Below, one piece after another: positions 40,646 to 42,606 of a stretch of 44,002 nucleotides of DNA. The position numbers and the translations under genes were made by a program. The stretch's first letter is position 1; every line of letters starts with the position of its first letter. The notes beneath the pieces are model-generated. The model ran no database searches and was not told where the DNA came from. It was given only the letters and a program-made list of their open reading frames with translations. Source of the stretch: Chloroflexota bacterium (lineage in GTDB: Bacteria; Chloroflexota; Dehalococcoidia; Lucifugimonadales; UBA826); assembly GCA_002722155.1 (NCBI GenBank), contig PBKS01000009.1, positions 66,748 to 110,749 on the forward strand, in the 5' to 3' direction.

Positions 40646-41860
40646 ATGAGAGATTGTTCACAAAGTGATGCCAGATATAGATGGGTGATGTTGGCCGGGG
40701 TTTGGTTAGCATACTTCTCATTCGGAGTTGTACAGGGTGGTATCCCACCTTTAATCAGTCCAGTTAGTGCAGACCTTGGTTTGAGTCGATCCACAATGGG
40801 TACAGTTCTGGGTGCTTGGCCGTTAATCTATATTTTAACGGCAATACCAGCCGGGGCCCTGTTGGATAGATTTAGTCTCAGATTCACAATTATGACTGGA
40901 GTATTGTTTATTGGCATATCGGGATTACTCAGAGCCCTAGCAGTCGATTACAAAACCATACTTTTTGCCGTAATGGTATTTGGGATAGGGGGACCATTTA
41001 TTTCTATTGGTGCCCCAAAATTAATCAGCACATGGTTTCCTGAATCTGATCGAGGCCGCGCGATGGGCATTTATCTGACTGCCCCCGCCATAGGCAGGAT
41101 ACTGGTCCTATCTGCTACCAATAGTTTACTAATGCCATTGTTTAACAATAGTTGGCGATTAGCCCTACTGACCCTGTCTGGAGTAGCCTTTGCCACTTCA
41201 CTGATATGGATTCTGATCGCTAGAGATCTAAAAACAAACAACTCTGAATCAGGCGAAAAAAAAGACCTTTTATCCAGTATGAAAACATTTCCTGATCTAG
41301 TACGAATCAGAGAGGTGAGATTGATTCTCATAATTGTACTCGGAATGTTTTTATTCAATCATGCCACCAATAACTGGCTGCCTGAAATTTTAATTGAAAA
41401 AGACATGGGCTCATCAAAGGCAGGTTTACTAGCCGCTATTCCAGTTGCTACCGGTGCAATCGGATCAGTAATTATCCCCCAGATAGCAAAGCCACAGTCG
41501 CACAGGAGGATTATGTTTTCTTTGTTCTCTGTCGCGGCAGCATCGACGATTTGCTTAATTTATTTTGATAATTCCTTCCTTGTGGGAACATTAATTCTGC
41601 TTGGAATTTCTTCCAGGGGGGTCATGCCAATAATAATGCTTACCCTGATATCTTTGGTGGGCAGCGAAAAAACAGGTGCCGCAGGCGGATTGTATTTTAC
41701 TGCCGGAGAAGTAGGGGGTGTAATGGGTCCTATACTATTAGGGGTCTCCGCGGATCTTTTTAGTGGATTTACACCAGGGCTCATCTTTCTGTCTGGTTTA
41801 TGTATCGTACTTTCATTTGGATCTACTATTATCAAAGAGAAAAAACCTACACCATACTGA
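40646..41860 (+). CDS. MFS transporter
   Basis: A 404-residue carrier with about 12 helices. Motif A reads GALLDRFSLRFTI and the fourth helix has STWFPESDRGRAMGIYL, as in the nitrate/OFA-like MFS groups. The substrate is unknown. No ribosome binding site precedes the ATG; the region directly upstream is the structured region at 40552-40640. The stop codon directly abuts the stop codon of the convergent selenoprotein candidate at 41861, so the two genes share no space. Confidence 0.87.
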   Translation: MRDCSQSDARYRWVMLAGVWLAYFSFGVVQGGIPPLISPVSADLGLSRSTMGTVLGAWPLIYILTAIPAGALLDRFSLRFTIMTGVLFIGISGLLRALAVDYKTILFAVMVFGIGGPFISIGAPKLISTWFPESDRGRAMGIYLTAPAIGRILVLSATNSLLMPLFNNSWRLALLTLSGVAFATSLIWILIARDLKTNNSESGEKKDLLSSMKTFPDLVRIREVRLILIIVLGMFLFNHATNNWLPEILIEKDMGSSKAGLLAAIPVATGAIGSVIIPQIAKPQSHRRIMFSLFSVAAASTICLIYFDNSFLVGTLILLGISSRGVMPIIMLTLISLVGSEKTGAAGGLYFTAGEVGGVMGPILLGVSADLFSGFTPGLIFLSGLCIVLSFGSTIIKEKKPTPY

Positions 41861-42346
41861 TCAATTCTCAGGCAATAGCGAATTAATTAAAGAATATTCC
41901 GGTACCCCGTTTGTTCGATATTGTGTAGCACCATACTGATCGAACATTATGAAAGTGGGTACTAAATTTGCCTCATATTCTACATACAAAAGTTTCCCGA
42001 CTTCGCTTTGCACTTCCAATTTTACAAAGGTCAACTTTTGACTTAATCGTTCCTCTAACCTGTCAACGGCAGGTTTCATAGTTAAACAACCAATTCAAAG
42101 ATCAGAATATAAATACAACAAGACAGGGCTTCCAGAATCACGTATTGAGTTCCAATGCTCAATCCCATTTAATTCATTGGAAGCTGTCGTGAGAGAACTG
42201 CGCAACAAAGCCACGGCGACCAAAAGGATTAAGGCAGAAAATAAAGCAACCTTTAAAGAAAAGGTACGATAGAGCAGGAAGAAGGATACCGCAATAACAA
42301 CACCTGAAACGAATAAATAAGAATACTGATTTATATATCCGAACAT
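41861..42346 (-). CDS. Candidate selenoprotein: membrane-anchored thioredoxin-like protein with UxxC
   Basis: Normal translation gives two pieces, 83 residues (42346-42095) and a later ATG frame (42079-41861), but both are in the same frame and only one TGA (42095-42097) separates them. Read through TGA as selenocysteine, the product has 161 residues: two membrane helices (about 10-27 and 31-51), then PVLLYLYSD, Sec84-Ile-Gly-Cys87, KPAVDRLEERL and LVPTFIMFD with the cis-Pro at 130. That is the order of a thioredoxin fold, with Sec in place of the first Cys of CxxC. A hairpin lies 26 nt after TGA. A nonsense mutation in a CxxC gene is the alternative. The start is an ATG without a good ribosome binding site, 11 nt after a terminator T-run. 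Confidence 0.78.
42057..42075 (-). promoter_or_regulatory. Candidate bacterial SECIS hairpin
   Basis: On the minus-strand transcript AACCUG pairs with CAGGUU around a 7-nt loop CCGUUGA; a further C-G pair would leave loop CGUU with a G among its first two bases. The loop begins 26 nt after the UGA, inside the 16-37 nt range known for bacterial SECIS elements. Confidence 0.6.
42095..42097 (-). other. In-frame TGA, proposed selenocysteine codon
   Basis: The only stop in a 162-codon frame. It falls exactly on the first position of a thioredoxin CxxC motif (TGA-Ile-Gly-Cys). Confidence 0.72.
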
Positions 42347-42357
42347 GTAATTTTCAC

Positions 42358-42388
42358 AAAAAAAATGGGCCGCCTATGGCGACCCATT
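42358..42388 (-). terminator. Rho-independent terminator after the zinc-ribbon gene
   Basis: On the minus strand an 11-bp stem (AATGGGTCGCC with GGCGGCCCATT, one U-G pair) with a 3-nt loop is followed by eight T (plus-strand A-run 42358-42365). It lies 26 bp after the stop of the zinc-ribbon gene and ends 11 nt before the start of the selenoprotein candidate. Confidence 0.9.
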
Positions 42389-42414
42389 CAATTGATTCGT
42401 TCAAATTCACCAAA

Positions 42415-42606
42415 TTAGGCAACGGCCATGTCATGCCCGCAACACATTGGTGATTTGATCTTTCCACAACCATTAGTGCACTCTGCTACACCAACGGTTG
42501 TACCGTCATCTTTCTCAATATTTACGTGACTTAGTTCTGTTCCACACTTGCCACACGTAATTGGGTGTACTTCCATTCCACAATCACCACAACTATATTT
42601 AGCCAT
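42415..42606 (-). CDS. Small zinc-ribbon protein
   Basis: A 63-residue protein with CGDCG (Cys6, Cys9), CGKCG (Cys18, Cys21), then CTNGC (Cys43, Cys47) and PMCCGHDM (Cys55, Cys56, His58). The first four Cys form a zinc ribbon and the later group could hold a second metal. It resembles desulforedoxin/rubrerythrin-type zinc ribbons but I do not name a family. The ATG at 42606 has a strong AAGGAG 7 nt upstream; a longer frame begins at 42648 without such a signal. It has a consensus promoter (42676-42704) and a strong terminator (42358-42388), so it is a one-gene unit. Confidence 0.8.
   Translation of the reverse strand: MAKYSCGDCGMEVHPITCGKCGTELSHVNIEKDDGTTVGVAECTNGCGKIKSPMCCGHDMAVA

Follow-up and report, generated by a model that had tools for sequence, protein, structure and literature searches.

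Two short open reading frames lie in one frame in the 44,002-nucleotide stretch of DNA analysed here (the window), parted by a single TGA, and the question is whether they are the remains of a broken thioredoxin gene or one gene in which the TGA is read as selenocysteine. The first-pass annotation, which favoured the second reading, had the coordinates right but gave no strand; the gene lies on the minus strand (Table 1). Its frame runs from an ATG (42346-42344) through the in-frame TGA (42097-42095) to a TGA stop (41863-41861), with 83 amino acids encoded upstream of the in-frame TGA. The readthrough product, MFGYINQYSY...YLYSDL-U-IGC-LTMKPAVDRLEERL...LVPTF...LLPEN, has 161 amino acids and a Sec-Ile-Gly-Cys (UIGC) active site, with one TGA in the whole frame. 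Window-wide, this was the sole TGA that both joined two long frames and looked gene-like; four other candidates lay in shadow frames or past ordinary stops and were rejected as genes. From the comparisons described below, we are almost certain that this seemingly stop-broken gene, from an uncultured SAR202 bacterium of marine origin, specifies a thioredoxin that is bound to the membrane and uses selenocysteine at its active site.

Table 1. Features of the seleno-thioredoxin locus, in window coordinates
Feature	Position	Strand	Basis
Selenoprotein gene, UIGC thioredoxin-like protein, 161 codons plus TGA stop	41861..42346	minus	translation with TGA as U; PF00085; family alignment
In-frame TGA taken as the selenocysteine codon; residue 84, which opens the UxxC motif	42095..42097	minus	Cys in homologues without the TGA
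Cys87, which closes the UxxC motif	42086..42088	minus	invariant in family alignment
Pro130, cis-proline of the thioredoxin fold (VPTF)	41957..41959	minus	invariant in family alignment
SECIS-like hairpin, stem AACCUG/CAGGUU, 7-nt loop CCGUUGA	42057..42075	minus	covariation; covariance model, 54 bits
Transmembrane helix 1, residues 7-28	42263..42328	minus	predicted
Transmembrane helix 2, residues 31-52; positive charges in the loop before it	42191..42256	minus	predicted
Intrinsic terminator, upstream of the seleno-thioredoxin gene and downstream of the zinc-ribbon-like gene	42363..42389	minus	12 pairs, then a T-run
63-aa cysteine-rich (zinc-ribbon-like) protein	42415..42606	minus	gene order shared within the genus

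Homologues were collected from the 147 nearest genomes (own genome, genus, family and order). A single-protein scan of genome contigs gave no match, and a closer alignment succeeded. In this set, 46 full-length genes carry a TGA in the same frame at the same residue, a recurrence far beyond chance, while the nine full-length genes without the TGA all have Cys there. Class- and phylum-level searches added dozens of TGA-bearing homologues. The first-pass annotation had placed the TGA at the first Cys of a CxxC motif, and throughout the homologues this position holds TGA or Cys and no other residue; an in-frame UGA aligned to Cys of homologues is one of the marks by which bacterial selenoproteins are recognized. 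The named relatives, independently assembled SAR202 cluster / Dehalococcoidia genomes (Chloroflexota) with the single-cell genome AC-647-P02 among them, all have TGA at this codon. A sequencing error at 42095-42097 is excluded because independent records, including a single-cell genome, share the TGA. In an alignment of 39 members, Asn6, Ser9, Ser81, Sec/Cys84, Cys87 and Pro130 are invariant. The spacing between the UGA and the KPxVxRL block is constant across the family, and the Cys forms share their N terminus with the Sec forms. A lone TGA in an otherwise open frame would also be expected of a nonsense change or read error in an ordinary membrane thioredoxin, and two Cys copies elsewhere (L063 in G123 and L142 in G484) have an in-frame TAG and are likely decaying, but this reading, to which we give next to no credence, is on the sequence record already refuted by the recurrence of the TGA at one codon in many genomes and across the phylum, and by the purifying selection seen in invariant residues past it.

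The two states of residue 84 have been exchanged repeatedly. In a quick tree with 76 Sec rows and 19 Cys rows, the best topology requires no fewer than 11 switches, at least four of which are forced by well-supported branches, and a relative in the same genus (G098) has a Cys copy as well as a Sec copy. Cys homologues also occur in Anaerolinea (L091) and in a Verrucomicrobia record (L090); no relatives were found in the viral contigs searched. Taken together, the searches indicate that the gene occurs across much of Chloroflexota: the form that the first-pass annotation discussed for one lineage is not confined to it. We also compared full-length members with the machinery of their genomes, taking genomes of 85% completeness or more from which SelA and SelB are both missing. 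The members of the three such genomes (G043, G068 and G072) are all Cys forms, compared with 6 of 51 members in genomes with the machinery (Fisher P about 0.003, counted by hand).

Further UxxC proteins were seen beside or near the family. In genomes G075 and G047, the gene immediately downstream of the membrane seleno-thioredoxin (L048, L050) encodes another UIGC thioredoxin, this one with a signal of lipoprotein type (IIGCGEDQ / ILGCGDSS), an arrangement that, as read from the sequence, puts two Sec proteins in tandem. L067 and L068 have lipoproteins of a similar kind, with UAEC and UATC.

The genome from which the window comes (1.65 Mb; completeness 86%) contains all four genes of selenocysteine synthesis and insertion that the first-pass annotation had proposed to look for, as expected of a selenoprotein-bearing bacterium. 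The tRNA-Sec (selC) scored 64.2 bits against a cut-off of 47 and has a UCA anticodon; SelA scored 539.8 bits, SelB 331.9 bits and SelD 389.9 bits, and SelD has an in-frame TGA of its own within a CAGU motif. Each of the three conditions that the first-pass annotation had named as refuting (Sec machinery absent, stops or unrelated residues in homologues, a sequencing error) has thus come out in favour of its reading. On contig C21 of the same genome (L071:152-2492), the tRNA-Sec adjoins an ordinary soluble thioredoxin (WCQPC), with a NifS-like Cys desulfurase about 1 kb from the tRNA; the three could possibly form a selenium-delivery cluster.

Downstream of the UGA, the transcript can form a short hairpin. 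It starts 19 nt past the UGA, with positions +20 to +25 pairing with +33 to +38 (6 bp) around a loop that begins at +26 and contains GU in 76 of 77 Sec forms. Since the distance from the UGA to KPxVxRL is constant, the alignment used to assess pairing is free of gaps. We analysed 77 distinct Sec forms and 19 Cys forms, with synonymous codons shuffled among sequences in 1,000 trials. In the Sec forms, standard pairs filled 426 of the 462 cells, against a shuffled mean of 371 +/- 4, and none of the 1,000 shuffles reached this value, whereas the Cys forms showed no hairpin signal (55 of 114 cells, 55.2 expected). When 40 Sec forms were taken, 94% of the cells were paired and two-sided changes occurred in five of the six pairs; 45 cells were double-changed (shuffled mean 13.9), and sliding the pairing partner abolished this covariation. 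The paired codons are CCT/AGG (35 times), CCC/GGG (22 times) and CCG/CGG (4 times), and residue 96, 12 positions after Sec, is therefore Arg or Gly, as the hairpin requires. By its covariation, the hairpin is a bacterial SECIS element, a line of evidence beyond those in the first-pass annotation. Folding of the single sequence was no better than that of shuffled sequences (z = -0.33, -7.4 kcal/mol), so that it is covariation that carries this assignment. Published rules for bacterial SECIS elements call for an upper stem of 4-16 bp and a loop of 3-9 nt with G(G/U), located 16-37 nt past the UGA (PMC13188914). Stem, loop size and spacing of the hairpin agree with these rules; the G position agrees marginally, being the third loop base unless C27 pairs with G31, and so does the energy, at -7.4 (45 nt) or -11.9 kcal/mol (52 nt) for a rule of -7.5. 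A covariance model of the hairpin had its only strong match in the window at this site, and in the whole genome it reached a convincing score only at the UIGC gene, which means that it does not map the remaining selenoproteome. The weaker genome matches were set aside as chance; one of them, on C11, has an in-frame TAA just upstream.

Two readings retain the TGA but give it another meaning. The codon might be translated otherwise, through a changed genetic code or through tRNA-Sec inserting Cys when selenium is scarce. Cys is the homologous residue, and insertion of Cys by the Sec machinery at low selenium occurs in other systems. However, TGA is the ordinary stop of both the seleno-thioredoxin gene and the adjacent MFS gene, other frames show no systematic in-frame TGA, and a true tRNA-Sec, SelA, SelB and SelD are accompanied by a SECIS element, which makes this reading very improbable. 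Alternatively, the UGA could act as a switch that leaves at low selenium only an 83-residue two-helix peptide with a role of its own. The N-terminal motif is indeed among the most conserved parts of the protein, but the Cys forms keep the same N terminus without any stop, so that the motif is independent of a switch, and we regard such a role as equally improbable.

The protein belongs to the thioredoxin superfamily by its cis-proline, its predicted fold and its match to Pfam Thioredoxin PF00085 (33.4 bits, cut-off 23.5). AlphaFold2, run on a 10-sequence alignment, gave a mean pLDDT of 79, with 84-94 per 10-residue block in the thioredoxin domain (residues 61-160), and the best PDB matches of the predicted structure were ordinary solved thioredoxins. 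The two N-terminal membrane helices described in the first-pass annotation are real and conserved. The loop between them carries a mean of 2.1 Lys/Arg compared with 0.14 in the N-terminal tail and is the more positive of the two in every one of the 51 members; under the positive-inside rule, this would leave both ends, and with them the thioredoxin domain, outside the membrane, as charge and hydropathy suggest. The opposite orientation, a selenoprotein whose thioredoxin domain faces the cytoplasm and is served by ordinary thioredoxin reductase, would fit two observations: the region after the second helix is not free of positive charge, and no extracytoplasmic donor (DsbD, CcdA or VKOR) was found in the genus. 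The uniform charge difference between loop and tail speaks against it, and we consider it unlikely.

Thioredoxin-like selenoproteins with UxxC are well known (PMC13188914, PMC2398784, PMC1088965). The selenocysteine thioredoxin of PF00085 shares with the UIGC protein the fold, the cis-proline, Sec at the first position and a UGA with a bacterial SECIS element, but the UIGC protein differs in having two N-terminal membrane helices and SDLUIGC in place of a WCGPC context (PMC13188914, 2026). Against the NCBIfam thioredoxin equivalog TIGR01068, it scored 33.6 bits where 96.8 are required. A second comparison involves cd02950, which we take to be the entry for the membrane-anchored thioredoxin TxlA. 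The 'Trx-like 3' group of the GOS survey matches this entry at a weak E-value, has UxxC, comprises 212 Sec and 183 Cys sequences and is commoner in marine samples; its text contains no analysis of topology, organism or SECIS (PMC2398784). Compared by description only, that group resembles the UIGC protein in its marine origin and UxxC motif, and it may include the UIGC membrane family without describing it. TlpA, ResA and CcmG, together with Sec-containing TlpA-like proteins, share a membrane-tethered extracytoplasmic thioredoxin fold. They usually have one helix and a family-typical inserted segment, whereas the UIGC protein combines a plain thioredoxin domain with two helices; its TlpA match was insignificant (E = 0.2, 11.4 bits against 230), there was no ResA match, and across the family these models matched few members, and weakly. 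The Anaerolinea and Verrucomicrobia homologues share the FN(Q/H)YS N-terminal motif, the two helices and the MKPAVDRLE block but have CxxC where the window protein has UxxC. No NCBIfam model names the family, and the 2026 selenoproteome catalogue has no membrane-anchored form, the words transmembrane, membrane-anchored and periplasm being absent from it (PMC13188914). The first-pass annotation knew of no description of the membrane-anchored form in this lineage, and 'Trx-like 3' qualifies that statement. Our literature search found no work joining SAR202 with selenoproteins; a sponge-symbiont study in which both SAR202 and selenocysteine figure reports SelA/SelB in symbiont bins.

The gene neighbourhood was searched for a functional partner, and none was found. 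The Cys-rich ORF, an MFS gene and an NHL protein are kept as neighbours only within the family-level group, with other genes elsewhere, and the Anaerolinea and Verrucomicrobia Cys genes stand alone. Within the genus, the 63-aa Cys-rich protein shows 95-97% identity, an unusual degree of conservation for so short a protein, and it has no NCBIfam name and only a weak Pfam match. On the other side, the seleno-thioredoxin gene and the convergent MFS gene abut without a gap, their stops sharing the palindrome TGATCA (41858-41863). The terminator is strong and ends 16 nt ahead of the seleno-thioredoxin start codon; judging by the frames upstream of the gene in relatives, it appears to be retained throughout the genus. 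No promoter scored above chance there, and we count this combination as a point against the explanation that we prefer.

We consider it very probable that the product is a seleno-thioredoxin anchored in the membrane with its domain outside the cytoplasm, and that it acts as follows. SelB bound to the hairpin would deliver Sec-tRNA-Sec to the UGA, yielding one 161-residue protein, a step strongly supported by the sequence data. The two helices, from charge and hydropathy, would anchor it with both ends outside. By analogy with the thioredoxin mechanism, Sec84 would be the exposed nucleophile, acting on disulfides or oxidised thiols in proteins of the envelope; Cys87 would resolve the mixed selenenylsulfide, and a donor would then re-reduce the Sec84/Cys87 pair. 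Most likely, Sec brings quicker exchange and resistance to over-oxidation in the marine surface environment, and the Cys forms would be the same protein after or before Sec replacement. Counted against this explanation is the missing electron donor: neither DsbD/CcdA nor VKOR was found in the own genome or in any of 16 family-level genomes, and the one protein of the genome with a borderline match to DsbD_2 scores better as a NicO-type nickel transporter. In four phylum-level relatives (L126, L128, L129 and L124), Cys87 is replaced by Ser, giving three UGAS and one UAKS motif. The resolving Cys would thus be dispensable in the wider family, and these relatives appear to fit a plain dithiol cycle less well. 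A broader proposal, which we find doubtful, is that there is an unnamed phylum-wide family of cell-surface seleno-thioredoxins served by a relay free of DsbD/CcdA and VKOR, with Sec ancestral in Chloroflexota and the UGAS/UAKS sub-branch acting as a one-site selenol enzyme.

The missing electron donor is a concrete question that this family raises. Annotation that treats every TGA as a stop overlooks the gene itself. The family also offers an unusually clear case in which an RNA element within a gene would dictate amino acids, the hairpin pairing calling for Arg or Gly at residue 96, and in natural Cys variants this constraint is gone. The deep ocean is rich in SAR202 bacteria, and a conserved selenoprotein of their envelope would tie their redox biology to the supply of selenium.
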